Positions 32,753-50,069 of a stretch of DNA of 64,000 bases are shown here, piece by piece. The notes beneath the pieces are model-generated. The model did not search any database. It was not told the DNA's origin and saw only the letters and a list, made by a program, of their open reading frames with translations. Both the position numbers and the translations under genes were made by a program. Location: positions 1,550,001 through 1,614,000 of the forward strand of contig NZ_CP048272.1 of NCBI RefSeq assembly GCF_019469425.1, in the 5' to 3' direction. Numbering within the stretch: the first letter of the stretch is position 1; the number at the start of each line of letters is the position of its first letter. Origin of the DNA: Bifidobacterium asteroides (lineage in GTDB: Bacteria; Actinomycetota; Actinomycetes; Actinomycetales; Bifidobacteriaceae).

Positions 32753-32783
32753 GGCTCCATTGTGCGACGGCGCTGCGACGGTC

Positions 32784-33434
32784 TCAGACAGTGACCAAGC
32801 GCTTGGCCTCCCTTTCGCGCTCAGCCAGGTCAAGGGGACGGCCGTGCCACTGATAGGCCACTCGCACGTTCTCGATCTCCTTGTTCTCAGGCATGATGAT
32901 GTTGCCGCAGCGGGTGAAACCATGGGTCTCCAGGATGTGCTGCATGGCATAGTTCTTCAGTCCCGTATCAGCGCGGATGTTCTCGTATCGGCGCATGCTC
33001 CAGTCAAGCAGGTCCCCGGCCGCGTGGCGCCCCAGTCCTGAGGCGGCCACCCGATGGATGGTGGTATAGGGGCGGTCGTCCAGCCAACTGCCATCGATGA
33101 CCCGATAATCCGGCTCCGGATCATGGAAGAGGGCAAAGACGCCGACGATGCGCTCGTGGCTGCCCTTGTGCTCGTCCAGCTCAGGTTCAGGGTAGACGGG
33201 ATCCTCAGGCATCTGATCCATGCCAGCTGCATCGTCAACCAAGAGCATGGTGTGGCCCCCGGCGATATCTTCGCGGATGCGTTCGGGCAGGGGGTACTTG
33301 TCCCCCCACTGACGGGGGTTGCCGGTCTCGGCCATCCGCTTCCTGGCGTAGGCGTAGACAGGCATGATCGCCTCAAAGTCGTCCATGGTGGCATGACGGA
33401 TCCAACGTGCAGTTTCCATCGCGTACCTGCTCAC
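32784..33434 (-). CDS. GNAT-family N-acetyltransferase
   Basis: The protein has 216 residues from a GTG at 33434 with GAGGT seven bases upstream. The fold signature is [20 protein letters not shown] at the N terminus, the acetyl-CoA-binding region VAASGLGRHAAGDLLDW near residue 145, and NYAMQHILETHGFTRCG near the C terminus. The acceptor is unknown. Its first 91 codons and 141 bp of its upstream region are repeated exactly at 40362-40776, where they are fused to luxS. It is followed by alr. Confidence 0.85.
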   Translation of the reverse strand: MSRYAMETARWIRHATMDDFEAIMPVYAYARKRMAETGNPRQWGDKYPLPERIREDIAGGHTMLLVDDAAGMDQMPEDPVYPEPELDEHKGSHERIVGVFALFHDPEPDYRVIDGSWLDDRPYTTIHRVAASGLGRHAAGDLLDWSMRRYENIRADTGLKNYAMQHILETHGFTRCGNIIMPENKEIENVRVAYQWHGRPLDLAEREREAKRLVTV

Positions 33435-33575
33435 TGTGGCTACCTCTTTCTCGACCGATGCGGGAGGGGCCAGGCCCGCCCCCGCGATTGCCGAAGTACG
33501 AGTGTATCCATCAGGAAGCTGCTACGAAGTGAGTACGCATTGAGCGAATCAGGGAATAGTTTGGGCTATTGCGCG
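33161..33575. repeat. 415-bp direct repeat, copy 1 (GNAT 5' part and upstream)
   Basis: This sequence is identical, base for base by eye, to 40362-40776. It covers codons 1-91 of the GNAT gene, its ribosome-binding site and its upstream region. Similarity ends at 33576, apart from a possible 1-bp offset continuing over CCTCT. Confidence 0.95.
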
Positions 33576-34621
33576 GCCTCTTGATTCCGACTTTTCGAGC
33601 GCAAACGACGGACACGGGTCAGGTTGACCACACTGTGTCGGCTGACCAGACGGGTTGGCATGACCACATGTCGCTGGAACTCCTTGCCCTGGCGTGCATC
33701 GAGGATCATTCCCACCGCCATCCTGGCCATCAGATCAAATGGCTGGTCCACCGTGGTAAGGGATGGCATCAAATACGAGGATGGATAGACGTTGTCGAAT
33801 CCGACAACAGACAAGTCCTGCCCGGGCTCCAGTCCACGTTCGCGCGCCGCTCTATAGATATTGACGGCTGTCAAGTCGTTGCAGGCCAGGATAGCAGTCG
33901 GACGATGAGCACGGTCCAGCAGATCACAAGCAGCCTGGTACCCTCTGTCAGGCAAATAGTCTCCCTGCTGAACCATAGTCGAGGGCAGGCTGGCACCGAT
34001 GGCTGCCAATGCTGCCCGGTATCCAGCCAGTCTGGCTTGCGCGGATTGCACATTCGCCGGTCCGGCGATAACTCCAATACACCGGTGGCCGGCGTCCAAA
34101 AGGCATTTGGCCGCCTGGTACCCTCCAGTCCAATTATCAAGCGTTATGCTCATGTCCTCATCGCTGACCAAGTCCACTGGATCGACCGCAACCAAGGGAA
34201 TGCCCCGTGCTTTGAGCACATTCTTGCCCTCCTGGTCTATGGAGGACATTTGGGTGATCACACCCAGCGGGTTGCGATCAATGATCCCCCTCAGACATTC
34301 CTCGGCGCGCCGCTGGTGGTCAGTCTGTGTCACCGTCAGAGCCAGACCGGCATCCAAAGCCCATTTTGAGGCATAACGTATCATCTCGATGGTGCCATTG
34401 TTGGCAATATAATCCACCACCAGCTCAATGGTTTGGGCGATCTTGGTACTGACAAGCGGATGCGCATAGCCCTGGTCAGCCAGAGCCTTTTCGACCCTGC
34501 GACGGGTTTTTGCCGCCACGCCCGGTCGACCGTTGATCACCTTGGATACGGTCGAAGCCGAGATGCCGAGCTGCTCGGCTATTGCGCCCACGTGCGGATT
34601 GCCGGGTTCCTGTCTGGCCAT
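33566..34621 (-). CDS. LacI-family regulator of the fucose cassette
   Basis: The protein has 351 residues from ATG 34621 with AAAGGA upstream. The N-terminal HTH (VGAIAEQLGISASTVSKVINGRPGV) lies at residues 7-32 and is followed by a periplasmic-binding-protein-like sensor domain. It is divergent from the fuconate dehydratase gene, so it probably controls the L-fucose genes. Its basic tail RRLRSKSRNQEAAQ is unusual. The last two codons and the stop lie inside the 415-bp repeat, so the insertion supplied the end of this gene. Confidence 0.88.
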   Translation of the reverse strand: MARQEPGNPHVGAIAEQLGISASTVSKVINGRPGVAAKTRRRVEKALADQGYAHPLVSTKIAQTIELVVDYIANNGTIEMIRYASKWALDAGLALTVTQTDHQRRAEECLRGIIDRNPLGVITQMSSIDQEGKNVLKARGIPLVAVDPVDLVSDEDMSITLDNWTGGYQAAKCLLDAGHRCIGVIAGPANVQSAQARLAGYRAALAAIGASLPSTMVQQGDYLPDRGYQAACDLLDRAHRPTAILACNDLTAVNIYRAARERGLEPGQDLSVVGFDNVYPSSYLMPSLTTVDQPFDLMARMAVGMILDARQGKEFQRHVVMPTRLVSRHSVVNLTRVRRLRSKSRNQEAAQ

Positions 34622-34771
34622 GTGCATCCTTTCCATTACCCAACAATCGTAACCAATGAAGAAGCGATAGCATCCATGTCGGGTTTAGAATTTTTACATT
34701 TCCGATTTTCAAATTTCTATTCATACGCCTATACTGAGGTATACGTTCACAAGATTGGCAAAGGAGCCACG
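34622..34771. promoter_or_regulatory. Divergent control region of the fucose cassette
   Basis: This 150-bp AT-rich gap separates the LacI gene from the fuconate dehydratase gene. TATACT at 34730-34735 is a good -10 for the plus-strand operon, with a weak TTTCAA about 17 bp upstream. TTAC-N9-GTAA at 34636-34652 is a possible operator. AAGGAG precedes the ATG at 34772. Confidence 0.45.
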
Positions 34772-36055
34772 ATGAGTACTATCACTGCAGTGAAAACGTA
34801 TGACTTTCGTTTTCCCACTTCTCTGACCCTCTCAGGGTCGGATGCCATGAACAAAGACCCCGACTATTCGGCCGCCTATGTGGAAATACACACCTCGGCT
34901 GAGGACGGCATCAAGGGCTGCGGACTGGTCTTCACCATCGGACGAGGCAACGATGTTGTATGCAGAGCCATAGATTCCATAGGAGATACTCTGCGTGGCC
35001 TGGAGGTTGAACGTCTGCTGGACAGCATGGGTTTAGCCTGGGACCTATTGGTCCATGACTCACAGTTACGCTGGCTGGGACCCGAAAAGGGGGTTGAGCA
35101 CATGGCCATTGGCGCGCTGCTGAGCGCCCTTTGGGACATGAAAGCCAAAAAAGCAAGAAAACCTTTGTGGCTGCTGCTGGCTGAAATGGATCCCGAAGAC
35201 CTGGTCAGCACCTTGGACTTTCGATATCTGTCCGATGCCCTGCGCCCCGAGGAGGCCATAGACATCCTCAAGGATGGGCAATCTGGTAAGCAGGAGCGCA
35301 TTGAGGACATTCGCCAACACGGATATCCTGGCTATTCGACAGCACCCGGCTGGCTTGGCTACAGCGACGAAAAAATGGTGGAGATCGCCAAACGGGAGAC
35401 CCGGGAAAAGGGCTTCAAACAAATCAAGCTCAAGGTTGGCCAGAACCTTGATGATGACATACGCCGCCTGGGACTGGCCAGGGATGCCATCGGCCCCGAC
35501 ATCCGCCTGGCCGTCGACGCCAATCAGGTTTGGGACGTCCCACAAGCCATTGACTGGATCAACCATTTCCATGACTTCGACCTGGCCTGGGTCGAAGAGC
35601 CTACCAGCCCCGACGACATTATCGGCCACGCAACCATTGCCAGAGCCATCAATCCCATCCCAGTGGCAACCGGCGAACAGATGCAGAACCGCATTATGTT
35701 CAAGCAGTTCCTGCAGGCCAACGCCTTCGGCATCATGCAGGTCGACGCCACAAGAGTGGCGGGCCCCCAAGAGATAGTTCTGGAATACCTATTGGCTCGC
35801 AAGTTCCACAAAATAGTCTGCCCACACGCCGGCGGGGTCGGACTGTGCGAGATGGTCTGCCACTTCGCCATGTTCGATTATGCAGCCGTCTCCTGCACCA
35901 CGCAGGGTCGAATGATCGAATATGTGGACAACCAGCACGAATACTTTGTGAACCCCGTGCGTATCAGCCAAGGCATGTATCAAGCACAGACAAATCCCGG
36001 CAATGGGGCTGAAATGACCCTGGAGACTGCAAAGCGCTACCTCCACCAAGAGTGA
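34772..36055 (+). CDS. L-fuconate dehydratase (enolase superfamily)
   Basis: The protein has 427 residues from ATG 34772 with AAGGAG upstream; the longer frame to 34433 runs into lacI. It is a mandelate racemase/enolase-type enzyme. The catalytic KxK is in QIKLKVGQN near residue 220, metal ligands are in LAVDANQVW, WVEEPTSPDD and ATGEQMQN, and the final His lies in CPHAGGVGL. Fuconate dehydratases turn L-fuconate into 2-keto-3-deoxy-L-fuconate. The neighbours support fuconate, although L-rhamnonate or D-arabinonate would use similar sets. First gene of a five-gene operon. Confidence 0.85.
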   Translation: MSTITAVKTYDFRFPTSLTLSGSDAMNKDPDYSAAYVEIHTSAEDGIKGCGLVFTIGRGNDVVCRAIDSIGDTLRGLEVERLLDSMGLAWDLLVHDSQLRWLGPEKGVEHMAIGALLSALWDMKAKKARKPLWLLLAEMDPEDLVSTLDFRYLSDALRPEEAIDILKDGQSGKQERIEDIRQHGYPGYSTAPGWLGYSDEKMVEIAKRETREKGFKQIKLKVGQNLDDDIRRLGLARDAIGPDIRLAVDANQVWDVPQAIDWINHFHDFDLAWVEEPTSPDDIIGHATIARAINPIPVATGEQMQNRIMFKQFLQANAFGIMQVDATRVAGPQEIVLEYLLARKFHKIVCPHAGGVGLCEMVCHFAMFDYAAVSCTTQGRMIEYVDNQHEYFVNPVRISQGMYQAQTNPGNGAEMTLETAKRYLHQE

Positions 36056-36135
36056 CTTCGAGCCACCTCAATCACAATTCGGTCCAACCCTGGACCCTTA
36101 ACGAATCATCAATCCATACAGACAAAGGAGTTCTC

Positions 36136-36927
36136 ATGGATCTGCATCTCAAGAACAAGGTATTCATCATCACCGGTGGCTTCAAGGGCATCGGCAGGGG
36201 CATCACCCTGCAACTGGCCCAGGAGGGCGCCATAACAGCAGTCATAGACCGTGACGAGTCAGCCAAGAGCCAATTCTGCAAAGACATCGAAGCCTATACC
36301 GATACCTATCGGACCTTCATTTTGAATCTGAATGACACCGACGGCATAGCCCCCATTGTGGAGCAGGTACACAAGGAATTCGGCCATATTGATGGCATAG
36401 TCAACAACGCTGGGGTCAACGACAACAAGGACTTGGAAACCACCGACTGGCGGGAGTTCGAACATTCCGTGCACGGTAATCTCACTCACTACTACGAACT
36501 CATGCATGCCTCTTGTGCCTATCTCAAGGAAAGCCACGGATCCGTCATAAATATCACCTCCAAAACAGCCGTGACCGGTCAAGGCAAGACCAGCGCCTAT
36601 GCGGCGGCTAAGGGCGGAATTCTGGGCCTGACCAGAGAATGGGCTGCGGCCTTGGTGCACGATGAGGTACGAGTGAACGCCATCGTGGTCTCGGAATGCT
36701 GGACCCCGCTCTATGCCGACTGGATTAAGACCTTTGGCGATGAAAAGGCCCAGCAGGCCCGTCTGTCGGTCATCACAGACAAGATTCCTCTGGAGCATCG
36801 CATGACCACACCCGAGGAGATCGGGAACACCGCCACTTTCCTGCTCTCCGATCGCGCATCGCACACCACCGGCCAATGGGTATTCGTCGATGGCGGATAC
36901 GTCCACCTGGACCGGGCACTGAATTGA
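36136..36927 (+). CDS. Short-chain dehydrogenase, probable L-fucose dehydrogenase
   Basis: The protein has 263 residues from ATG 36136 behind AAAGGAG. Rossmann motif TGGFKGIGRG lies at residues 12-21, NNAGVND follows, the catalytic Ser is in INITSKTAV, and YAAAKGG carries the Tyr and Lys. In the oxidative fucose pathway this step makes fuconolactone with NAD(P)+. Assignment to that step rests on the operon: dehydratase, permease, lactonase and aldolase surround it. Confidence 0.82.
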   Translation: MDLHLKNKVFIITGGFKGIGRGITLQLAQEGAITAVIDRDESAKSQFCKDIEAYTDTYRTFILNLNDTDGIAPIVEQVHKEFGHIDGIVNNAGVNDNKDLETTDWREFEHSVHGNLTHYYELMHASCAYLKESHGSVINITSKTAVTGQGKTSAYAAAKGGILGLTREWAAALVHDEVRVNAIVVSECWTPLYADWIKTFGDEKAQQARLSVITDKIPLEHRMTTPEEIGNTATFLLSDRASHTTGQWVFVDGGYVHLDRALN

Positions 36928-36935
36928 GCTCTGCC

Positions 36936-38204
36936 ATGGAAAATACAAATACACGAAACAAAGGCGGGTCCAAGGCCACCATCGCCATAGCCCTGGTCAT
37001 CGGCCTCTTCTTCATCTGGGGATTGACCATGAACCTGGTCAACGCTCTCAACAGCCCGTTCAGCAACTATATGGAGCTGAATAGCACCCAGGCATCACTG
37101 CTGCAGGTGGCCTACTATGGAGCCTACTTCGTTATGGCCATCCCAGCCGGAATCATCTCCAAGCGCTTCGGCTACAAGGGCGGTGTCATTTCCGGACTGA
37201 TACTGTTCGCGGCTGGAGCATTCATCGTGGTGCCAGCCACAAATATGGCCAGCTACGGACTCTTCCTATTCGCCATGTTCGTGATAGCGCTGGGAGCCTC
37301 CTCACTGGAGACCAATTGCAACCCTTACGTGACCAAGCTGGGCGACGAAAAAGGCGAATCCTTCAGACTCAATCTGGCACAGAGCTTCAACGGAGTCGGC
37401 AACGTAGTGGGGCCTCTGATTTTGGGTGCAGTCCTGTCCAAAACCCTGACCCCAAAACAGCCAGGTTTTGAGCAAGCCAAGGTCAAGTTCCTGTCTGATA
37501 CCAGGATGATCTATATTGTCATCGGCATCGTCCTGCTGCTGGTGTTGGCTGTCTTCATCGTCTTCAAACTGCCAACACCACCTGGCGATGACGAGCAGGA
37601 AGGGAAAACCGGCACCGGCTCTGGCATTTCAAGCCTGCCAAAACGCCCCTACTTCGTATTGGGCGTGATAGCCGAGTTCATCTTTATCGGCTTGCAGGTG
37701 GCAGGCATGGCCATGTTCTCCGCTTATGCTCTCCGACACTGGGGCGACGGCATAACCGCCGGTCTGGCTGCCACACTGTTGGCATTGCTGTCAGTGCTGT
37801 TCACCCTTGGCCGGTTTCTGACCACTCCGTTGATGACCAAATTCGATGCCAGCAAGATACTGGGCATCTACATGTGCATCACAGCCATGTTGATGATTCT
37901 GGTATCCCTGGGTATGGGACGATTCTCGGTCATCTGCTTCCTGATCGCCTATCTGTTCATATCGATCGGCTACCCCACGATCTTCTCGCTGACGCTCAAA
38001 GGCATCAGGGGCAACGACGCCAAGACCGGCTCTTCGGCGCTGGTCATGAGTATCGTCGGAGCGGCCCTGATCCCACTGCTGCTGGGCGCCATCCAGGACG
38101 CCATGGGCATCGAAATCGCAATGCTGGTGACTGTGCCCGGATTCCTCTACATCGCCTGGTACGCCTTCCGTGGGTGTCGCATAGGTCTTGAGCAGGGAGC
38201 CTGA
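36936..38204 (+). CDS. fucP: L-fucose permease (FucP-like MFS)
   Basis: The protein has 422 residues and 12 membrane helices. It belongs to the FHS/FucP group: GLFFIWGLTMNLVNALNSPF near the N terminus and ALGASSLETNCNPYVTKLG with NLAQSFNGVGNVVGP are typical. FucP imports fucose by proton symport. The ATG at 36936 starts 8 bp after the dehydrogenase stop with only GAG upstream, so translation is probably coupled. Confidence 0.88.
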   Translation: MENTNTRNKGGSKATIAIALVIGLFFIWGLTMNLVNALNSPFSNYMELNSTQASLLQVAYYGAYFVMAIPAGIISKRFGYKGGVISGLILFAAGAFIVVPATNMASYGLFLFAMFVIALGASSLETNCNPYVTKLGDEKGESFRLNLAQSFNGVGNVVGPLILGAVLSKTLTPKQPGFEQAKVKFLSDTRMIYIVIGIVLLLVLAVFIVFKLPTPPGDDEQEGKTGTGSGISSLPKRPYFVLGVIAEFIFIGLQVAGMAMFSAYALRHWGDGITAGLAATLLALLSVLFTLGRFLTTPLMTKFDASKILGIYMCITAMLMILVSLGMGRFSVICFLIAYLFISIGYPTIFSLTLKGIRGNDAKTGSSALVMSIVGAALIPLLLGAIQDAMGIEIAMLVTVPGFLYIAWYAFRGCRIGLEQGA

Positions 38205-38205
38205 C

Positions 38206-39003
38206 ATGACACAACAACTGCAGGTCATCGATGCCCACTTCCATATGTGGAATCTTGAGCGGCAACATCTGCCTTGGCTGGACGGGATTCCCTCACTGAA
38301 CCGGAGTTTTTCCCTTCATGAATTGGAAAGCGAGTACGAGCAGCTAGGAGTGGAGTTTCTGGGCGGAGTCTATGTGGAAGTAGACTCGGACGACCCCCTA
38401 TTAGAGGACCGCTTGGTCTATGAGAGCAATAACCCCAAAATTCTTGCCCGAATGCTCCGAGCCCAAGTAGGGCCCTATATGAGGGTGCCCATCAATGCTA
38501 CGGGCATCAGAGAGCCGCTGCATACTGACTCTGCCCCTCGCGGCCGTTGCATGGAACCCTCCTTCATCGCTGGGCTCCGCGCCATGGCCGATAAGGGCCT
38601 GCCCTTTGAGCTATGCAACAGGGGGGCGGAACTGCCGGATATGGCTCAGACATTCTCTCAGGTTCCTTCCCTGACTGTCATCATGGACCACCTGGGCAAT
38701 ATGCCTGACTTGTCGCCGGCCTGTAAAAAAGCCGTACAGACCATGGCAGCCCTGCCGCACTGCTATATCAAGGTGTCAGGCGACCTGCCGGTCGATCACG
38801 ACATCGTCGCCTTTGTCAGGGACACATTTGCCCCGGACAGGATTCTCTATGCCTCCAACTGGCCGGTAGTCACCGTCCACTCCTCATTACGGGAACACTG
38901 GCAACTGATGCTGGACATCTTTGGCCCGGATGAGGACTTCTTCAGGCACAATGCCATGAGGGCCTATGGAATTGATGCCGATATACATGCTGTGAAAGGG
39001 TGA
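38206..39003 (+). CDS. L-fuconolactone hydrolase (amidohydrolase 2 family)
   Basis: The protein has 265 residues from ATG 38206, one base after the FucP stop, with GGGAG upstream. The metal-binding VIDAHFHMW lies at residues 6-14, VIMDHLGNMPD near residue 160, and YASNWPVVTVH with the catalytic Asp/Asn position near the C terminus. The family includes sugar lactonases such as fuconolactonase and 4-sulfomuconolactonase. It opens the lactone formed by the dehydrogenase to give L-fuconate for the dehydratase. Confidence 0.82.
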   Translation: MTQQLQVIDAHFHMWNLERQHLPWLDGIPSLNRSFSLHELESEYEQLGVEFLGGVYVEVDSDDPLLEDRLVYESNNPKILARMLRAQVGPYMRVPINATGIREPLHTDSAPRGRCMEPSFIAGLRAMADKGLPFELCNRGAELPDMAQTFSQVPSLTVIMDHLGNMPDLSPACKKAVQTMAALPHCYIKVSGDLPVDHDIVAFVRDTFAPDRILYASNWPVVTVHSSLREHWQLMLDIFGPDEDFFRHNAMRAYGIDADIHAVKG

Positions 39004-39005
39004 AT

Positions 39006-39905
39006 ATGCGCACATCATCAGCCAAATTCGAGGGAATATTCTGCCCGTCAATAACCGTCAGCGACGATCAAGGAGTCATAGACACCGCCCTTTGGGGACG
39101 ACATCTGGACCATCTGATTCAGGCTGGCATCAACGGAGTGCTCCTGTTCGGAAGCATCGGCGAGTTTTATGCATATGATCTCCAAGAGAAGCGCTCAGCC
39201 CTGCAATTCGCCATCGACCATATACGAGGACGCGTGAAGGTATTCGTCGGGATAGGCGATACGAACATGGACCGGGTGATGGATCTGACCGCATTTGCCG
39301 GACAAATCGGCGCCGATGCCGTGGTTGCTGTCAGCCCCTATTATTTTGGTCCTTCGGAACCGACTGCTTACAGATATTTCAGCAGCATCGCCCATGCCTC
39401 GGTTGTACCGGTGATTCTCTATAACTTCCCGGCTCGTACAGGCAACGACTGCTCCCCCGAGTTGGTCGCGAGACTGGCCCGGAAATGTCCGAATATCGTG
39501 GGCATCAAAGACACTGTAGACACGATCAGCCACACACGTCGGATCGTATCCGCAGTCAGGGGTGTCAGCAGTGAGTTCTCGGTGTTCTCAGGGTTCGACG
39601 AATACTATTTGGCCAACCGTATCTGCGGAGGCAACGGCGTTTTGTCAGGTCTGACGAACGTGGAGCCAGAGACCTTCGTTGCCATGCATCAGGCCTATCA
39701 AAAGGGCGATTACCAAACCGCGCTAGACAAGGCCCGACGCATTAACCATTTGATGGCGATTTACGACACTGCGGATTTGTTCGTGTCGGCCATTAAGGGA
39801 GCTGTGCGACTGCAGGGTCTGCCCATCAGCACACGCATCCGCGAACCGGCTACGCAGATTGATGACTACCAGATGCGACAGATCGAGACCATACTGCGTA
39901 GTTGA
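39006..39905 (+). CDS. 2-keto-3-deoxy-L-fuconate aldolase (DHDPS/NAL family)
   Basis: The protein has 299 residues from ATG 39006 with AAAGGG five bases upstream; a GTG at 39000 overlaps the lactonase stop. It is a class I aldolase of the DapA family with LLFGSIGEFYAYD, the catalytic Tyr in LYNFPARTG and the Schiff-base Lys in NIVGIKDTVD near residue 165. In the B. longum type pathway this step splits 2-keto-3-deoxy-L-fuconate to pyruvate and L-lactaldehyde. No lactaldehyde reductase or fucose mutarotase is in the cassette. Confidence 0.82.
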   Translation: MRTSSAKFEGIFCPSITVSDDQGVIDTALWGRHLDHLIQAGINGVLLFGSIGEFYAYDLQEKRSALQFAIDHIRGRVKVFVGIGDTNMDRVMDLTAFAGQIGADAVVAVSPYYFGPSEPTAYRYFSSIAHASVVPVILYNFPARTGNDCSPELVARLARKCPNIVGIKDTVDTISHTRRIVSAVRGVSSEFSVFSGFDEYYLANRICGGNGVLSGLTNVEPETFVAMHQAYQKGDYQTALDKARRINHLMAIYDTADLFVSAIKGAVRLQGLPISTRIREPATQIDDYQMRQIETILRS

Positions 39906-39924
39906 GCTTTCATCTATTGCATCG

Positions 39925-39965
39925 AACAGGGCCTGAGAAAAACCTACCTTTCCTCAGGCCCTGTT
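39925..39965. terminator. Bidirectional terminator between aldolase and chimeric gene
   Basis: A perfect 13-bp stem, AACAGGGCCTGAG/CTCAGGCCCTGTT with a 15-base loop, lies between the convergent aldolase and the chimeric GNAT-LuxS gene. It ends 9 bp before the luxS repeat begins. Confidence 0.85.
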
Positions 39966-39973
39966 GTTCGTCT

Positions 39974-40363
39974 GTCAGCGTTCAGACCAGCTTGCGCTCG
40001 TAAGGATCGGAGCTGATGCCAGCGGCCACAATGTCGCGGCTCCACTGCTTGGCCGAGAAGAGCGAATGGTCGCGGTAGTTGCCGCAGGAGGTGATCTCGG
40101 TGCCGGGCACGTCATCCCAGGTGGCCTTTCCGGCGATGAACTCCAACGACTCCTTCAGAGCCTTGGCCACATCCTCGGTCGAATGACGGCCCCAGGCAAG
40201 CAGATGGAAGCCCGTCCGGCAACCGAAGGGCGAGCAGTCGATGTAGCCGGGAATGCGCTCGCGCAGGAGCACGGCGATGGTGTGCTCAATGGTGTGCAGC
40301 CCAGCAGTTGGAATGGCGTTCTGGTTGGGCTGGACCAGGCGCAGATCATAGTTAGAGATGATG
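39974..40363. repeat. 390-bp direct repeat, copy 1 (luxS 3' part)
   Basis: This matches 47418-47807 with two substitutions by eye, one silent and one changing a luxS Glu codon to Gly. It covers luxS codons 35-160 plus the stop and 8 bases past it. It shares TG with the start of the GNAT repeat at the junction. Confidence 0.95.
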
Positions 40364-40635
40364 CCCTTGTGCTCGTCCAGCTCAGGTTCAGGGTAGACGG
40401 GATCCTCAGGCATCTGATCCATGCCAGCTGCATCGTCAACCAAGAGCATGGTGTGGCCCCCGGCGATATCTTCGCGGATGCGTTCGGGCAGGGGGTACTT
40501 GTCCCCCCACTGACGGGGGTTGCCGGTCTCGGCCATCCGCTTCCTGGCGTAGGCGTAGACAGGCATGATCGCCTCAAAGTCGTCCATGGTGGCATGACGG
40601 ATCCAACGTGCAGTTTCCATCGCGTACCTGCTCAC
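39982..40635 (-). CDS. Chimeric gene: GNAT residues 1-91 fused in frame to LuxS residues 35-160
   Basis: The open frame has 217 codons with the GNAT start and ribosome-binding site. Residues 1-91 equal the GNAT protein at 33434 up to DEHKG. Residues 92-217 equal LuxS residues 35-160 from IISNYD, with one change (FIAGKATW for FIAEKATW). All LuxS zinc and catalytic residues are kept (HTIEH at 114-118, the Cys in SPFGCRTGF, the Cys in [10 protein letters not shown]). The LuxS N terminus and the acetyl-CoA motif of GNAT are lost. Neither parental activity is assured; it could be silent, or could mix with real LuxS, which works as a dimer. It is expressed from the duplicated GNAT promoter if at all. 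Confidence 0.8.
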
Positions 40636-40776
40636 TGTGGCTACCTCTTTCTCGACCGATGCGGGAGGGGCCAGGCCCGCCCCCGCGATTGCCGAAGTAC
40701 GAGTGTATCCATCAGGAAGCTGCTACGAAGTGAGTACGCATTGAGCGAATCAGGGAATAGTTTGGGCTATTGCGCG
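40362..40776. repeat. 415-bp direct repeat, copy 2 (GNAT 5' part and upstream)
   Basis: This is identical to 33161-33575. Here the GNAT codons read into luxS sequence at 40362-40363 instead of the rest of the GNAT gene. Confidence 0.95.
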
Positions 40777-40805
40777 CCTCTCATAAAAGTCGGAACCTTT
40801 CTTTA

Positions 40806-42809
40806 TCAGCTCCTTAACCAGACTTTCATGCTTCCCGTCTCCCGATTGGCCCAAGCATAGTAAGGAACCAACTTCATGTTTACAGATCGCTCATGCTTAT
40901 CCGACAGGGGGATATAGAGAGGATCATCAGGGCTATCCTCGGAATCAAGCATGGCTGGTACGGTCAGCATGTCGACGCCGCCAAGCAGATCCTGGTGGAA
41001 TTCAGATGTCACTTTCTGAGGATCAACAAGGACCCGGTACTGCCAAAGCTTCCCCGGGTTATCAGTCGACTCTGCGCAATAGACCAGAGGGCCCCGCATA
41101 AGCGCAACAGATCCGGCATCCGACGAAACCCGCGAGTTGGCTCTCATGAGCTTAACGGCCATATCCATTTCCAGGTGAACATGGCTCTTTTGGCCTGGAG
41201 CCAGATCCACATAAATGAATCCGCGCTCAAGCTCCGTCGATTCTTCGAATCCGTCATGGGTCATCTTGTACGAATCTGCCGTCCAACTGGGCACTCTGAT
41301 GCCGAAACGAACTGGTCCGGAAGCATCCGCAGACAGTTCCAAGTCGTAGTCGACAAGTCCACTCCATGGGTAATTCGTTGACTCCACAACTTCAAGGCCA
41401 TTGTCAAAGCCGGCCTGATTGGCGATGAACTGATGGCTGAGCACCGTGAAGTCATCAGGCCTTGCATAAATATATCTATCCACGGAGGCGATCAGTCTGG
41501 CGATGTTGGCGGGACAGCAGGCGCAGCCAAACCAGTCCACTCTATGTGCCAGAACGTGATGACGATCCGGATTGTCTATACCCTCGGGATCGACTTGGAG
41601 GGGATTGACATAGAAGTACTGACGTCCATCCAGACTGATGCCTGCCAAGGCACCGTTGAAAAGCTCACGCTCGAGTATGTCGCCATATTCGCCATCGGCA
41701 TCCAGCGCAAGCATTCTCTCGGCCAGCATGGTAGCTCCGACCGACGCACAAGTTTCCCCGTACATAGTGTCATTAGGCAGATCGTAATCGTAGGTGAGGG
41801 ACTCACCGACGTGAGTGGATCCGACATTCCCGGTGATATACATGCGTTTGTCGACCAAGTTGCGCCACAGTCGGCGTACCGTGCGTTCCAAGTCTGCATC
41901 TTGGGTAATGGCAGCCAGGTGAGCCATGCCCGTACATAGATACATCAACCTCACTGCATGGCCATGAGCTGTTTGTTGCTGACGAACCGGGCGATCAGCC
42001 TGAAAGTACTCCAGAGGATAATCGGCCATATCCGGCGCAATTTGCTCACCTGGCGCGCTCTCTTGTTGCTTGGCGTAGAAACGTGGATCCTGCCCACGAA
42101 TATTGATGAGATAGGCAGCCAATTGCTTATACCGCTCTTCACCAGTAGCCTCAAAGAGCTTGCAGAGAGCAAGCTCGATTTCAGGATGACCATCGGCTCC
42201 GTGGATTTTCCCCTCTTCGGGTCCAATATGCGAATCAATGCAATCAGCCATCCGACGAGCTATATCCAAGGCCTGCCTATTGCCGGTGACTTGGTAATAC
42301 GCCAGTCCCGCTTCTATGTAGTGACCCATGCTGTAGGTTTCATGGGATTGCTGCAACTGCGAGAAGGGCCTGCGATCCGCCCAAGGACCCGTCCCGATCT
42401 GAAATGGTGTGACCAGGTACCCGTCTGGAGTCTGAGCCCTGGAAATAAGGTCCACGGTTCTGTCACAGACCGCTTGCAGGTGGGAATTTGGATGATACTC
42501 CAGCACATAGGCGGCTTCCTCCAGCCACTTGTAGAGATCGGAATCCTGAAAGACCATACCTTTGAATTCTCCAGCCTGCTCACCAGCGGCAATGCGCAGA
42601 TTGCTGACAGCATGACTAAGTGGGTCAGAACCCTGGTTGCCGGCTGGATCATCAGGCACATTTACATTGGCTTGATCATTGAGAACCTGCCACTGATAGG
42701 GCAAAACCACACGTGCAATCTGCTCCCGCCGATGTTGCCAAAAAGTTGATGTAATCCTAACTTGTGGTTCACTAGGCAGTGGCTTCCAGCGCAACTGTGT
42801 TTTTCTCAT
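40806..42809 (-). CDS. GH127 beta-L-arabinofuranosidase
   Basis: The protein has 667 residues from ATG 42809 with AAGGAGAACGA upstream. It matches HypBA1-type GH127 enzymes. YGETCASVGAT near residue 340 supplies the zinc Glu and first Cys, and FGCACCPANIARL near residue 415 supplies the Cys pair, one of which is the nucleophile. An (alpha/alpha)6 barrel is followed by beta domains. It releases beta-linked L-arabinofuranose from plant glycans or arabino-oligosaccharides. No signal peptide, so it acts in the cytoplasm on sugars imported by the adjacent ABC transporter. Last gene of cassette B. Confidence 0.9.
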   Translation of the reverse strand: MRKTQLRWKPLPSEPQVRITSTFWQHRREQIARVVLPYQWQVLNDQANVNVPDDPAGNQGSDPLSHAVSNLRIAAGEQAGEFKGMVFQDSDLYKWLEEAAYVLEYHPNSHLQAVCDRTVDLISRAQTPDGYLVTPFQIGTGPWADRRPFSQLQQSHETYSMGHYIEAGLAYYQVTGNRQALDIARRMADCIDSHIGPEEGKIHGADGHPEIELALCKLFEATGEERYKQLAAYLINIRGQDPRFYAKQQESAPGEQIAPDMADYPLEYFQADRPVRQQQTAHGHAVRLMYLCTGMAHLAAITQDADLERTVRRLWRNLVDKRMYITGNVGSTHVGESLTYDYDLPNDTMYGETCASVGATMLAERMLALDADGEYGDILERELFNGALAGISLDGRQYFYVNPLQVDPEGIDNPDRHHVLAHRVDWFGCACCPANIARLIASVDRYIYARPDDFTVLSHQFIANQAGFDNGLEVVESTNYPWSGLVDYDLELSADASGPVRFGIRVPSWTADSYKMTHDGFEESTELERGFIYVDLAPGQKSHVHLEMDMAVKLMRANSRVSSDAGSVALMRGPLVYCAESTDNPGKLWQYRVLVDPQKVTSEFHQDLLGGVDMLTVPAMLDSEDSPDDPLYIPLSDKHERSVNMKLVPYYAWANRETGSMKVWLRS

Positions 42810-42846
42810 TCGTTCTCCTTCTGTCCACAATCGTCAACGCGGACCG

Positions 42847-43665
42847 TCAGCCCTTGACTGCGCCTGCCATGAATCCCTTGACGTAATACTTCTGAAGCGT
42901 CAGGAAGAGGATCGCTGCAGGCAGAAGCAAAACAACCACGCCGGCCTCTGTAGCTCCATAATCAATAACGCCCATGGTCTGCTGACGCATGTTGACCAAG
43001 GCCAAAGGCAGGGGGGCGTGCGAGGACCCGACAAGGTAGAGGGGAATCATGAAATTATTCCATGCTTCAAGGAAGGCCAGCAGCCCCACGGTCACCATGG
43101 AAGGTTTGACTACGGGCATCAGGATCTTGACCAGTGCCTGCAGGCTATTGCATCCGTCTACCATGGCGGCCTCCTCCATATCCTTGGGAATGGCATCAAA
43201 AGCTATCCGCATAATGAAGGTGCTCATGGGAAGTTGGAAAAGAGTCAGGACAAGGCCGACGCCAACCAGGGAATCGTTCAGACCGATGTCCTTGCACCAA
43301 ACCATAAGCGGTATCAGCAGGGATGCATACGGCACCATGAGAATGGACAGCGTTACCATAAATCCCAGATCATGCCCTGGATATTCAAATCTGGAGAAGG
43401 AGTACCCAGCCATAGTGCAGACAATTACGGAAAGCACCACCGTAACCAGAGTGATTACCACCGAATTGGCCAAGTAGGTAGGCAACCCGTCCTGGTAGTG
43501 CAACAAGGTCAGATAATTGCCCGGTCCCCAGCCGTCCGTCTGGGCAGATCCTGTCTGCGGACTGAAGGAGCAGATGACCACCCATATCAGGGGAGCAATG
43601 AAGACCAGGGCCAACAGGGCCTGAAGAATCCTGCTTATGCAGCGTTTCCACAAGGGCGTAGTCAT
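42847..43665 (-). CDS. ABC sugar transporter permease (MalG type)
   Basis: The protein has 272 residues from ATG 43665 with GAGGGG upstream. It has six membrane helices, and the EAA loop reads EEAAMVDGCNSLQALVKILMPVVKPS. It pairs with the permease encoded just upstream. It ends 38 bp before GH127, so imported oligosaccharide would go directly to that enzyme. Confidence 0.9.
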   Translation of the reverse strand: MTTPLWKRCISRILQALLALVFIAPLIWVVICSFSPQTGSAQTDGWGPGNYLTLLHYQDGLPTYLANSVVITLVTVVLSVIVCTMAGYSFSRFEYPGHDLGFMVTLSILMVPYASLLIPLMVWCKDIGLNDSLVGVGLVLTLFQLPMSTFIMRIAFDAIPKDMEEAAMVDGCNSLQALVKILMPVVKPSMVTVGLLAFLEAWNNFMIPLYLVGSSHAPLPLALVNMRQQTMGVIDYGATEAGVVVLLLPAAILFLTLQKYYVKGFMAGAVKG

Positions 43666-43673
43666 GATTCCCC

Positions 43674-44594
43674 TCACTTGGTATTGTCGCGCAGACCGCG
43701 CATTTGAATGGAATTGATGACGACCAGGGCCAGCAGCACAATCAGGGAGAGCGCTGCAGCCATGCCCAGGTCCTTCTTGGAGTCGAAGGCAAAGTTGTAA
43801 ATGAGCTCGACTACGGTCATGGTCGCGTTGTTCGGCCCACCCTTGGTCAGAATGAAGAACTGATCGAAAGCGAGAATGGACCCGGTTACACTATAGACCA
43901 AGCACATAATGATGGTCGGCCGCATCAAAGGAAGGGTGATTGACTTGAAAATCCGCCAAGTACCCGCCCCATCCATGCGCGCAGCTTCGTAAAGATCACC
44001 CGGAATGGATTGCAGACCTATCATCATGAGCAGCATGTAGTACCCCGAGAACCGCCAGACAATGACAATAATGGTGGCCCAAAGGGCACTCTGCCCGGTG
44101 GCCAGCACAGAACCATTGGCATGCATGAGTCCCAGATGAGCCAGGATTTCCGTGACCGGTCCCACCTGAGGCGAATACAGGGCATAGAAGAGCAACGATG
44201 CTGAAGCCAGTCCAGTGGCGCTAGGCAGCAGGAAGCAGGTCCTAAGCACGTTGTTCCATGCACTGGACTCTTGCACAAGCAAGGCCAATCCCAGTCCGAG
44301 GACCAGGAGAATAACGGTTACTATGACGGTGTACTCCAACGTGAACCCGATGGCATGGCCAAGCAGCTCATTGTGCAGAACCTTGATGAAATTCGTCGGA
44401 AAATTCCAACCCCGGTTACCGCCCATCAAGGTCCAGCGAGAACCTGCCATGACGATCAGCAGGACGATGGGAACGACGAAAAGGACGATAATGAACAGCC
44501 AATCCGGGAGAGCATAAATCATCCCTCGGCGCATTCTTCTTCCGCCTACCATGCTTCGTCTTCGTGTTACTGCTTGCCCACTGCTACCTGACAT
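43674..44594 (-). CDS. ABC sugar transporter permease (MalF type)
   Basis: The protein has 306 residues with six membrane helices and a basic N terminus (TRRRSMVGGRRMRRG). The EAA loop is YEAARMDGAGTWRIFKSITLPLMRP. It forms the heterodimeric channel with the MalG-type protein, whose ATG starts 9 bp after its stop. No ATPase gene is in the cassette; as usual for this family the importer must borrow a shared MsmK-type ATPase. Confidence 0.9.
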   Translation of the reverse strand: MSGSSGQAVTRRRSMVGGRRMRRGMIYALPDWLFIIVLFVVPIVLLIVMAGSRWTLMGGNRGWNFPTNFIKVLHNELLGHAIGFTLEYTVIVTVILLVLGLGLALLVQESSAWNNVLRTCFLLPSATGLASASLLFYALYSPQVGPVTEILAHLGLMHANGSVLATGQSALWATIIVIVWRFSGYYMLLMMIGLQSIPGDLYEAARMDGAGTWRIFKSITLPLMRPTIIMCLVYSVTGSILAFDQFFILTKGGPNNATMTVVELIYNFAFDSKKDLGMAAALSLIVLLALVVINSIQMRGLRDNTK

Positions 44595-44693
44595 ATTGCA
44601 CCCCTTCGTTGGTCATACCGATCGTCGGCGATCGTCAGAGAGGCTCCTCCGCAACCTTTCTGACGAAACCGATGGATCCTTATTTACGGCCAT

Positions 44694-46016
44694 TCACTCC
44701 TTGGACAGGACCTTGCTGACCGCCTGATTGTCGGCTTGCAAATTACCCTTGCCCCAGACGGCATTCTGTATCAGTAACTGCCAGGGCGACCCGGCGGCAT
44801 TGAAGGCCTCGTTGAAGGCCGGAGACTTTGGGGTCTGACCATGGCCGTCGACAATGACAGAATTGATGGTCTGTACCCGCGGATCAGCATCGGTATAAGC
44901 GGTCTTCAGGGTACGGATGTTCGATGCGGTGTCACCCTTGTCAGCAAACACCTGCTTCTGGCTATCCGCTTGCATCAGCCAGGAAAGGAAGTTCCAAGCC
45001 TGAGCGACATGCTTGCTGTCCTTGGAGATTCCCATGGCATCCCCGCCAAGGAAAGTGGCGGTCTTGCCCTCCTCAGTGCCGGGTATAGGAGCCACGCCAA
45101 CCTTGAATCCGCCCTTCTTCTCCGCTTCAATGACTGCGGTCACCGAAGTGTTGGGGTAGGGCATCACACCGACCTTTCCATTGGCGAATGGGGCTGTCCA
45201 AGTAGCGCCCGTCTCCTCCTTGGAGCCTGCTCCTAGGCCATTGGAGGTCTCAGCAAGCTGATGGTAAGCGTCCAGAGTGGCCTTCATAGAGGGGTTGTCC
45301 AGAGAAGCCTTGCTACCGTCGTCGTTCATCACTTCATGACCATCAGCCCACGAGGACGGGAAAAGATCAAATGCCAGCGCCCCGCCTGACTGACCAGCCA
45401 GATATGATCCTGAGACCCCGTCCTTGTTCAAACCGGCAATCTTCTTGGCCTGACTTGCGAATTCCTCTATGCTGGCTGGGCCTTTCTCCGGGTCCAGACC
45501 GGCCTGCTGGTAAAGGTCTTTGTTCCAGACCATGATCGAAACATCGGTGATGAAGGGCAGCGTGTATTTCTTGCCATCCACTGTTCCAGCCTTGATATGG
45601 CCCTGTTGAAGATCAGCTTTATTCGACAGGGCATCGATCTGCTTGGTGATGTCCTTGAAGATGCCCTCAGAAGCCCAATAGGGAATGCGGACTACATCAC
45701 CCGCCAGAATATCCGGCAGCGAACCAGTCTGGGAGGCTCCGCCTACCTTGCCTTCCATATCGTCGTTGGGGATAATCTCCAACTTGACCTTGTTCTTGTG
45801 GGACTTGTTGTACACAGCGACCACGTTTTTTGCCTGCCGCTCCAGTGGCGATCTGGTCCACAGGGTGATTTGCTCCCCATCGTCCGTCCCCTTGGCCGGT
45901 ATCTTGTCGGAAACCGCGCCGGGCTGCGATCCTCCTCCACATGCGGCCAATGGCAGGAGCATGGCGACAGCGGCTATGGCTGTCGTCGTACGTACGATGC
46001 TCTTCATCGAGATCAT
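44694..46016 (-). CDS. ABC sugar-binding lipoprotein
   Basis: The protein has 440 residues from ATG 46016 (MISMKSIV) or 46007. The signal peptide ends with lipobox LAAC near residue 25, followed by a Gly/Ser linker. It is a family 1 solute-binding protein: TLWTRSP, YNKSHKNKVKLEIIPND, GDAMGISKDSKHVAQAWNF. It captures the oligosaccharide outside the membrane. A 99-bp gap with a possible CGATCG-based hairpin separates it from the first permease, which fits higher expression of the binding protein. Confidence 0.9.
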   Translation of the reverse strand: MISMKSIVRTTTAIAAVAMLLPLAACGGGSQPGAVSDKIPAKGTDDGEQITLWTRSPLERQAKNVVAVYNKSHKNKVKLEIIPNDDMEGKVGGASQTGSLPDILAGDVVRIPYWASEGIFKDITKQIDALSNKADLQQGHIKAGTVDGKKYTLPFITDVSIMVWNKDLYQQAGLDPEKGPASIEEFASQAKKIAGLNKDGVSGSYLAGQSGGALAFDLFPSSWADGHEVMNDDGSKASLDNPSMKATLDAYHQLAETSNGLGAGSKEETGATWTAPFANGKVGVMPYPNTSVTAVIEAEKKGGFKVGVAPIPGTEEGKTATFLGGDAMGISKDSKHVAQAWNFLSWLMQADSQKQVFADKGDTASNIRTLKTAYTDADPRVQTINSVIVDGHGQTPKSPAFNEAFNAAGSPWQLLIQNAVWGKGNLQADNQAVSKVLSKE

Positions 46017-46356
46017 ATCTGCTTCTTTCTCTACGTTCCCGCTCATCGTTGAGAGCTGGCTGCGGAAACTCCGCTTAGCATTCGACGAGTCTCATTTGAA
46101 TCCAACCGAATGATCCACGCCAAAAGCCCTTTCATCATATGTGATATCAGCGAAAATGCAAAATCGCTTTCTCACAGTGTTGCAAATCTATTGATTATTC
46201 ATAGATGAAGTATTTTCCTCTACTTTTTTGTCGTCTATGCGAAAATGAAGGTTTTGAGTTTTCGCAACTGCCGAAATCCTCGCAAGACCGCACTAGCATA
46301 TGGATTAACACACGATGCAATCAACTGCTCGGAAAATTCACGAACTGGAGTCGGAC
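46017..46356. promoter_or_regulatory. Divergent control region of the arabinoside cassette with two LacI-type operator candidates
   Basis: The 340-bp gap between the binding protein and the LacI gene holds no gene. Two imperfect palindromes stand out: AGCGA-N10-TCGCT at 46149-46168 and GCGAAAA-N13-TTTTCGC at 46239-46265. Their shared half-site GCGA suggests operators for the adjacent LacI protein. GGAG lies before ATG 46357. Confidence 0.5.
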
Positions 46357-47367
46357 ATGGAGAAGACAACACGGACTGTCAGGCTGTCGGATGTGGCACG
46401 AATGGCCCAGGTGTCGCTATCGACGGCTTCTAAAGCGCTTCATGACCAGCCCAGGGTGAGTCCAGCGACCAGAAAAAAGGTTCGGGCAGCGGCAGAACGT
46501 CTGCACTACAGTCCAAACAAGATGGCTCAATCGCTGGCCAGCGGCAAGAGCGGCATCATCGGTCTGGTCACCTCAGACCTGACCGGCCGTTTTTCAACCC
46601 CTATCCTAATTGGGGCCGAAAACGAGTTGCGCGCTGGCTCCGTATCTGTTTTGCTGGCGAACGCCCGAGGTGATGAAGCCTTGGAACGCAGCCATGTTGA
46701 AAAACTACTCTCGTTGAATGTGGACGGCCTGCTCATCGTGCAGAGGGAAACCAATCCCCGTTCCAGCCTGGGAAACGTAGGTGTCCCTTTGGTCTATGCA
46801 TATGGACCGTCAACCAATCCCAATGATGCTTCTGTCACCTGCGACAATGTCGATGCCGGACGAATCGCAGTCAATTCGCTCATCTCCTGCGGACGCAACA
46901 AAATAGCCATCATTGGAGGCGACGAAACTTTTACAGCAGCCACAGATCGGACCAAGGGATCACTTGAGGCGCTGGCAGAATTCGGCCTTGAACCTGCTGG
47001 GCCAATCCGATACGGCCGTTGGAATGAGAATTGGGGACGCGCAGCTACCAGACTATTGCTTGACCAAGGCGTCGATTTTGATGCAGTCGTCTGTCAAAGT
47101 GACCAACTGGCAAGGGGCTGCATCGATGCACTGAAGCAACAGGGGCTGTCGATTCCTGATGACGTGGCGGTGGTAGGCCACGACAACTGGGATGTGCTGG
47201 TCAACGCCTCCAGGCCTTCATTGACTAGCATCGACAACAACACCGAGCTGATTGGCCGCATTGCCGCTCGGCAGCTCATGGATGCCATCAAAGGACAGCC
47301 GCACCATGGGATTGACTATGTACCCTGCCGTCTGATTCAACGCGAGTCAACGGTACCCATGGATTAA
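46357..47367 (+). CDS. LacI-family regulator of the arabinoside cassette
   Basis: The protein has 336 residues from ATG 46357 with GGAG six bases upstream. The HTH at residues 8-30 is VRLSDVARMAQVSLSTASKALHDQP, with the hinge-helix region SPNKMAQSLASGKSG. A sugar-binding sensor domain follows, with VVGHDNWDVLVNASRPSLTSID near the end. It is divergent from the transporter and GH127 genes and probably represses them. It is not close in sequence to the LacI protein of cassette A. Confidence 0.9.
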   Translation: MEKTTRTVRLSDVARMAQVSLSTASKALHDQPRVSPATRKKVRAAAERLHYSPNKMAQSLASGKSGIIGLVTSDLTGRFSTPILIGAENELRAGSVSVLLANARGDEALERSHVEKLLSLNVDGLLIVQRETNPRSSLGNVGVPLVYAYGPSTNPNDASVTCDNVDAGRIAVNSLISCGRNKIAIIGGDETFTAATDRTKGSLEALAEFGLEPAGPIRYGRWNENWGRAATRLLLDQGVDFDAVVCQSDQLARGCIDALKQQGLSIPDDVAVVGHDNWDVLVNASRPSLTSIDNNTELIGRIAARQLMDAIKGQPHHGIDYVPCRLIQRESTVPMD

Positions 47368-47375
47368 AGCAAGAT

Positions 47376-47415
47376 AGAGGCCCAGGCTGAGCTTTCATCT
47401 TCAGCCTGGGCCTCT
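47376..47415. terminator. Bidirectional terminator between LacI and luxS
   Basis: A perfect 15-bp stem, AGAGGCCCAGGCTGA/TCAGCCTGGGCCTCT, has the loop GCTTTCATCT. The 13-mer TGAGCTTTCATCT within it recurs at 39903-39915 at the same edge of cassette A. Confidence 0.88.
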
Positions 47416-47417
47416 TA

Positions 47418-47807
47418 GTCAGCGTTCAGACCAGCTTGCGCTCGTAAGGATCGGAGCTGATGCCAGCGGCCACAATGTCGCGGCTCCACTGCTTGGCCGA
47501 GAAGAGCGAATGGTCGCGGTAGTTGCCGCAGGAGGTGATCTCGGTGCCGGGCACGTCATCCCAGGTGGCCTTTTCGGCGATGAACTCCAACGACTCCTTC
47601 AGAGCCTTGGCCACATCCTCGGTCGAATGACGGCCCCAGGCAAGCAGATGGAAGCCCGTCCGGCAACCGAAGGGCGAGCAGTCGATGTAGCCGGGAATGC
47701 GTTCGCGCAGGAGCACGGCGATGGTGTGCTCAATGGTGTGCAGCCCAGCAGTTGGAATGGCGTTCTGGTTGGGCTGGACCAGGCGCAGATCATAGTTAGA
47801 GATGATG
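47418..47807. repeat. 390-bp direct repeat, copy 2 (luxS 3' part, parental)
   Basis: This is the intact-luxS copy of the repeat at 39974-40363, with two base differences. It ends inside luxS after codon 35 counted from the start. Confidence 0.95.
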
Positions 47808-47908
47808 TCTCCCTGCGGGCCCTTCTCTTCGTCGATCAGACGAACGTAGGGCGCCTTGACCTTGGTGTGGTCCAGTTGGAAGCTCTCTACGATAGGTTTG
47901 TCAGCCAT
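47426..47908 (-). CDS. luxS: S-ribosylhomocysteine lyase LuxS
   Basis: The protein has 160 residues from ATG 47908 with AGGAAAGGAAA upstream. LuxS splits S-ribosylhomocysteine into homocysteine and the autoinducer-2 precursor DPD. Zinc ligands lie in HTIEH (residues 57-61) and Cys127 of [10 protein letters not shown], and the catalytic Cys is Cys82 in SPFGCRTGF. Length and motifs are complete. It lies next to recQ, separated by 112 bp. Its last 126 codons are duplicated in the chimeric gene at 39982-40635. Confidence 0.97.
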
Positions 47909-49988: not shown

Positions 49989-50069
49989 GATTCCCCAGTC
50001 TATTGCCACGGCAGGAGTCAAGCAGTGGGCGAACGACCATGTGGTCAATCGTGGGACATAGACGGAAAC

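Follow-up and report, generated by a model that had tools for sequence, protein, structure and literature searches.

Gene order between alr and recQ

The window, i.e. the whole stretch of 64,000 nucleotides that was analysed, carries a gene cluster bounded by two conserved flanks, an alanine racemase gene (alr, 31394..32950, minus strand) on the left and a recQ-type helicase gene (48021..50048, minus strand) on the right. Next to alr lies an intact GNAT-type gene encoding 216 amino acids (32784..33434, minus strand; full frame, PDB matches), which is overlapped by the alr ORF as listed. Next to recQ lies an intact luxS gene encoding 160 amino acids (47426..47908, minus strand; full frame, Pfam). 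The label GNAT is based on the PDB entry 2pc1 ('Acetyltransferase, GNAT family'), which matched residues 111-195 with an E value of 1.4e-10. A second entry, 3h4q ('putative acetyltransferase'), matched residues 12-66 (E 4.3e-5). No match to the protein encoded at 32784-33434 was found in Pfam (limit E 10) or NCBIfam (limit 0.001).

Despite this lack of Pfam and NCBIfam matches, a GNAT-type gene was detected downstream of luxS in 64 of the genus loci examined, which were the best 80 of 161 relatives. In the same set the distance between the two genes was below 1 kb in 47 loci, 1-5 kb in 8 and above 5 kb in 9, and for 16 of the 80 luxS loci no downstream GNAT was found in the available DNA. Close luxS-GNAT linkage is the common state. 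At L054, L057, L063, L069, L094, L097, L098, L100 and L080 the nearest downstream GNAT match was approximately 3-9 kb from luxS (the match at L080 was weak, 38% identity), and the luxS-GNAT gap may take up DNA in other Bifidobacterium loci too. In B. saimiriisciurei two luxS-like loci (L050 and L051) were located on one contig.

The DNA between the intact GNAT and luxS genes contains two groups of genes, assigned with Pfam and NCBIfam. Cassette 1 (33576..39973) consists of a LacI regulator gene on the minus strand and, on the plus strand, genes for an enolase-superfamily protein, an L-fucose dehydrogenase-type SDR, a FucP-like MFS transporter, an amidohydrolase and a DapA-type protein. The SDR exceeded the NCBIfam cut-off for L-fucose dehydrogenase (380 vs 300 bits). 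The FucP-like transporter was slightly below its cut-off (277.1 vs 280.4), the DapA-type protein was below that of dapA (191 vs 206), and the sole NCBIfam match of the amidohydrolase, L-fuconolactonase, was far below (42 vs 400). The gene set resembles a non-phosphorylating L-fucose route. Cassette 2 (40777..47417) consists of genes for a GH127 protein, two ABC permeases and a solute-binding protein on the minus strand, and a LacI regulator gene on the plus strand. The GH127 protein matched the Pfam beta-L-arabinofuranosidase GH127 models and scored well below the NCBIfam cut-off for aceric acid hydrolase (386 vs 950). Among the 11 main cassette genes there was no integrase or transposase; their Pfam domains are metabolic, transport or regulator domains. 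All 13 genes tested (six of cassette 1, five of cassette 2, GNAT and luxS) had full frames. With both cassettes the strain may be able to use two types of plant sugar, as against one in its relatives.

An ORF of 217 codons (39982..40635, minus strand; ORF list and base-by-base comparison), composed of GNAT codons 1-91 and LuxS codons 35-160, separates the cassettes, and the order of the region is GNAT - cassette 1 - cut luxS|cut GNAT - cassette 2 - luxS. The ORF lies within two adjoining repeats. Repeat D1, comprising GNAT codons 1-91 together with the 141 bp in front of them, is present at 33161..33575 and at 40362..40776, and the two copies are identical over 415 bp. Repeat D2, comprising luxS codons 35-160 and 8 bp downstream, is present at 39974..40363 and, within the full luxS and its 8 bp downstream, at 47418..47807; here 388 of 390 positions match, the two differences being at 40130/47574 and 40258/47702. 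The length and identity of the repeats rule out chance matches. Their sole overlap is the dinucleotide TG at 40362..40363, which is common to both parents and marks the illegitimate join. When a 1101-bp probe covering the chimera was compared with the whole genome (one contig, 2,233,706 bp), it matched three places only, the chimera and the two parental copies.

These comparisons confirmed the fused gene as a genuine feature of the assembly. The original prediction had described it as an isolated chimera, with its parents, codon limits, TG join and two base differences, all of which proved correct base by base. The GNAT upstream region said to have been carried along is indeed present, as the 141 bp preceding the start codon in D1. 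The fusion thus stands as described, but not its isolation: the repeats bracket two complete cassettes, and the chimera is the joint of a tandem. A lone insertion of a luxS piece into GNAT was rejected, because neither outer parent is damaged and entire cassettes lie between the repeats. Attention had also been drawn to the reading frame, intact despite the illegitimate join. The frame is open, but since both parents are on the same strand, this is a 1-in-3 event that does not need selection.

The GNAT-luxS site in related genomes

The segment 29.5-50.5 kb of the window was compared with 15 loci of the B. asteroides/indicum group, 12 of them from the asteroides group. Between GNAT and luxS, six relatives had cassette 1 alone (B. 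mizhiense, B. choladohabitans, B. polysaccharolyticum, B. apousia, strain B4142 and B. mellis), three had cassette 2 alone (strain VRA_9sq_n, strain ESL0200 and G018) and six had neither (ESL0199, sp. 7101, G007, B. indicum, one MAG and G014). None had both. The matches continued from the cassette into the GNAT or the luxS flank, therefore the cassettes are alternative contents of one site. In this group of bifidobacteria the GNAT-luxS gap is thus a site for the fucose-type cassette, the GH127/ABC cassette or neither. That alr/GNAT on one side and luxS/recQ on the other flank cassette 1, cassette 2 or neither in the relatives is the pattern of a recombination hotspot without a mobile element.

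In a whole-genome check, 27 genus genomes (the window's own and 26 others) were probed with the DNA of each cassette. Cassette-1 DNA was found at 92-93% identity in six of the 26 other genomes and cassette-2 GH127 DNA at 89-92% in three, always between GNAT and luxS, and the two sets of carriers were disjoint. Weaker matches elsewhere were seen for GH127 (64-66% in two genomes) and for the enolase-family gene (73-75% in two genomes, including the cassette-2 genome G010), and fragments of only 33-75 bp matched cassette DNA in the window's own genome and three others. These are presumably paralogues or chance pieces. With six and three carriers among the 12 asteroides-group genomes, the lack of double carriers has no great statistical weight on its own; the stronger argument is that the site is shared. 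Within the sequences searched, the fused junction was specific to this genome. None of the 26 other Bifidobacterium genomes contained it, the GNAT and LuxS matches being separate there, and no chimera was present among the best 80 of 161 relatives, in which all 80 LuxS copies keep the N-terminal Ser and His. A search of viral_contigs for 36 bases of the junction gave no exact match, and megablast against plasmids gave none either.

Some variation of the site and its surroundings was observed in addition. Three asteroides-group loci without a cassette (L037, L039 and L114) retain a stretch of about 100 bp similar to the 3' end of the LacI gene of cassette 1, and from this remnant they look like deletion derivatives of cassette 1 rather than the original empty state. 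In B. polysaccharolyticum (L036, about 12275-12281) cassette 1 lacks the FucP-like transporter gene, corresponding to 36988-38116 of the window. A second variable spot was noticed past recQ, at about 50052-50068 of the window, where 10 of the 12 asteroides-group relatives have approximately 2.4 kb of extra DNA; this stretch is absent from the window, L035 and L042.

The age of the joint was estimated from the divergence of the repeats. Divergence between the window and the 12 asteroides-group loci was 4.3-8.0% in D1 and 4.9-7.4% in the luxS part, and the flanks and cassettes of the window were 89-93% identical to theirs. Because the repeats within the window differ at 0 of 415 and 2 of 390 positions as against 4-8% among the 12 related loci, a single species is the most likely source of both haplotypes, and the join is most likely recent compared with the divergence of the species, provided that the similarity of the repeats is not maintained by gene conversion. 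Gene conversion could make the join appear younger than it is. As one strain was examined, it is also possible that the tandem has long been fixed in the species. Import of cassette 2 with its flanks from a sampled species is unlikely, the repeats being alike within the window and 4-8% different from the 12 asteroides-group loci.

The cassettes themselves give little indication of which one was resident. Cassette 2 was closer to its relatives than the flanks by 1.7-2.2 percentage points in two relatives and by 0.9-1.6 in the third, and cassette 1 by 0.2-1.7 points in five relatives (B. polysaccharolyticum was left out); a gap of this size appears too small to pick the resident cassette. The two differences between the luxS copies were not informative in this respect either. 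At 47574 all 15 relatives have T, as in the full luxS copy, and at 47702 C, the base of the chimera, is found in 13 of 15, while T, the base of the full luxS, is found in B. indicum and G014. Neither difference separates the cassette-1 relatives from the cassette-2 relatives.

In the window two copies of the locus thus follow one another in the same orientation, linked by a novel joint, and comparison across species identified the copies as alternative alleles of one locus, as in a merodiploid. The stacked order, the near-identical repeats, the one-or-none state in the sampled relatives and the full frames of the outer and cassette genes are direct observations. We conclude that the region is very probably a heteroallelic tandem of alternative haplotypes, i.e. 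a natural merodiploid, in which the chimera is the scar at the joint.

Coding capacity of the fused ORF

Three outcomes had been offered for the fused gene: a dead scar, a new protein or a subunit that alters AI-2 output. The first of these is best supported, and the other two found no positive support. As predicted, the zinc and catalytic residues of LuxS survive: H57, E60, H61, C82 and C127, for which zinc and catalytic roles have been described in S. suis numbering (PMC4618692), are all present in the chimera. The chimera also scored 132.9 bits with the Pfam LuxS model, well over the gathering cut-off of 27 bits, over profile positions 26-149 of 154. Similarly, the predicted loss of the LuxS N terminus was borne out, and with it Ser9 and His14 are gone. 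These two residues did not vary in any of the 80 loci compared (the best 80 of 161 relatives). Ser-6 and His-11 of LuxS are named as important for activity in PMC4618692. We read Ser9 and His14 as their counterparts, because of the conserved VESF-LDH stretch and because Arg-39 and Glu-57 show the same offset of 3.

When tested with the ten NCBIfam LuxS models, the chimera was below the cut-off in all ten; the full luxS passed two of the ten. The acetyltransferase half is not complete either. The chimera contains residues 1-91 of 216, and the part matching 2pc1 (residues 111-195) is absent. A simple consensus scan of 39850-40950 detected no promoter-like or terminator-like site, a result of limited value as such consensus sequences say little in this genus.

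Of the two base differences from the full luxS, one is silent, and in this position the chimera has the common base. The other, private to the chimera (all 15 relatives have the base of the full copy), results in the substitution E112G. In the luxS stretch of 13 genomes 68 of the 126 codons were variable, and 66 of these 68 varied silently only, therefore the fact that the first change of the chimera alters the protein can be taken as a hint of lost constraint. This is a single mutation, possibly a sequencing error, and the position is variable in the genus: among the best 80 of 161 relatives residue 112 is Y in 49, E in 14, N in 9, D in 5, F in 3 and G in none.

Taken at the level of its residues, the chimera is probably a dead scar, a non-functional by-product of the joint. 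The notion of a working new protein, be it a partner of true LuxS that alters AI-2 output or a protein with a new function, could appeal to the open frame, the retained GNAT start region, the five conserved LuxS residues and the Pfam score. We regard it as extremely improbable in view of the missing LuxS N terminus with Ser9 and His14, a GNAT half that ends at residue 91 of 216, a sole private change that alters an amino acid, the failure to reach the cut-off of any of the ten NCBIfam LuxS models and the occurrence of the chimera in one of 27 genus genomes, the window's own. The lack of a promoter-like site in the consensus scan is weak evidence in the same direction. An intact chimeric frame, it appears, may represent the seam of a recombination event instead of a new gene.

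Formation and fate of the tandem

Stacking of the two haplotypes would have taken place in the lineage of the strain, with a single illegitimate join at the 2-bp TG match fusing mid-luxS to mid-GNAT, and with homologous recombination in the shared flanks combining two haplotypes of the same species. Each route considered requires one illegitimate join. The most economical is a circle route, in which a linear fragment extending from mid-GNAT to mid-luxS and carrying one cassette would be circularised by end joining, and the circle would then integrate by one crossover in GNAT or luxS, the resident losing nothing. Circularisation followed by a single crossover has been described as a fate of linear DNA in E.coli (PMC3240628); in that work, out of 60 clones in which homology-facilitated illegitimate recombination (HFIR) was expected, 56 gave a PCR signal of duplication and 14 were sequenced. 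No match to Ku was found in the genome, which makes Ku-type end joining an unlikely source of the join; this is a point against the circle route, whose end-joining step would call for some other enzyme. For the circle route alone we would put the chances at a little under even.

The same order and near-identical repeats would also result if duplication came first and replacement second. An illegitimate unequal exchange at TG between sister chromosomes would duplicate GNAT'-cassette-luxS', and later a conspecific fragment would replace one of the two like cassettes by homologous recombination in the flanks. Tandem duplications are stated to be the commonest form of merodiploidy, some of them arising without flanking repeats (PMC3784515), and replacement by recombination at flanking core genes is the proposed route of change for such sites (PMC5635113). 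On the other side, this scheme needs one event more than the circle route, and a tandem of two like cassettes was not seen at this site in any of the 15 relatives; we consider it possible but rather unlikely. Less probable still is HFIR of a linear donor, one end of which would have recombined in luxS/recQ or alr/GNAT while the other was joined illegitimately at TG. It would require only one homologous and one illegitimate event, and HFIR-like stacking has been proposed for the immunity-gene arrays of V. cholerae (PMC5361080). HFIR has been described mostly with 3-10 bp of microhomology, and usually with a deletion of about the size of the insert (PMC3240628), whereas the joint here has 2 bp in common and no net loss is visible at the locus, where a loss refilled by donor luxS would not show. 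DNA uptake is putative in the B. asteroides group. ComEC- and DprA-family proteins are encoded in the genome, but they were also found in 10 and 11, respectively, of 14 control genomes including E.coli, and do not imply competence. Bee-gut bifidobacteria have been reported to have variable accessory segments and low core recombination (PMC4449606); the low core recombination would at most speak mildly against exchange being frequent here.

An origin of the joint in the assembly or the library was also considered. Both haplotypes occur singly in relatives, and a mixed culture of two strains, one per cassette, is conceivable. The genome is a single contig with a listed contamination of 0.21%, and the join shares 2 bp only, leaving an assembler nothing to join on. 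Because assemblers join at long shared sequence and not at 2 bp, a false join would, on this argument, need chimeric DNA molecules. Such an artefact appears very unlikely.

If the region is a heteroallelic tandem, a RecA crossover between the two copies of D1 would produce GNAT-cassette 2-luxS and one between the two copies of D2 would produce GNAT-cassette 1-luxS, and each of the ordinary haplotypes might be released in this way. Repeats of 415 and 390 bp should be long enough for RecA to reduce the tandem to a single copy. Sequencing may have captured a short-lived state, or the tandem may be maintained because it is an advantage to have both cassettes. It is improbable that it serves as a standing reserve of two haplotypes, the strain regularly yielding cassette-1-only and cassette-2-only progeny via D1/D2 recombination. 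Were this so, the progeny would be exact ordinary haplotypes, and a haploid lineage would keep a balanced polymorphism within itself. The strain offers a ready system for measuring the frequency and direction of tandem collapse.

The kind of structure is already known. A search by title and start of abstract for Bifidobacterium merodiploid, luxS fusion and B. asteroides luxS topics, in a collection with subscription papers mostly outside it, showed no paper on this locus among those listed. What is unusual is that a one-contig genome contains two whole alternative cassettes as a tandem. The relatives examined have the alternative cassettes one per genome and the swap route is deduced, and here an apparent swap intermediate has been caught in a one-contig genome with a joint readable to the base.

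The closest parallel is provided by the merodiploids of transformed Streptococcus pneumoniae (PMC3784515), which are likewise tandems of two chromosomal versions with a chimeric joint. Partial loss of the duplication, expected here, was observed there. The joints described in that report lie in the long repeats IS861 and IS1167, as opposed to 2 bp in common, and the duplications are mostly at least 107 kb (one of 3.3 kb arose without repeats), whereas the unit here is about 7 kb and its two copies hold different genes. The circularised linear DNA of E.coli (PMC3240628) provides another parallel, the homologous flank being duplicated after one crossover of a circle that had lost sequence; that was a plasmid experiment, while integration of a circle is deduced here from a natural chromosome. 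In the effector/immunity modules of Vibrio cholerae (PMC5361080), for which HFIR has been proposed, alternative modules also stand side by side, but older effectors were lost and the immunity genes kept, whereas both modules of the window are complete. Finally, chromosomal hotspots without mobile elements (PMC5635113) similarly have variable genes between core genes, with exchange thought to proceed via homologous recombination in the flanks. Double recombination at such hotspots, according to that account, replaces one variant by another; in the window two are held at once.
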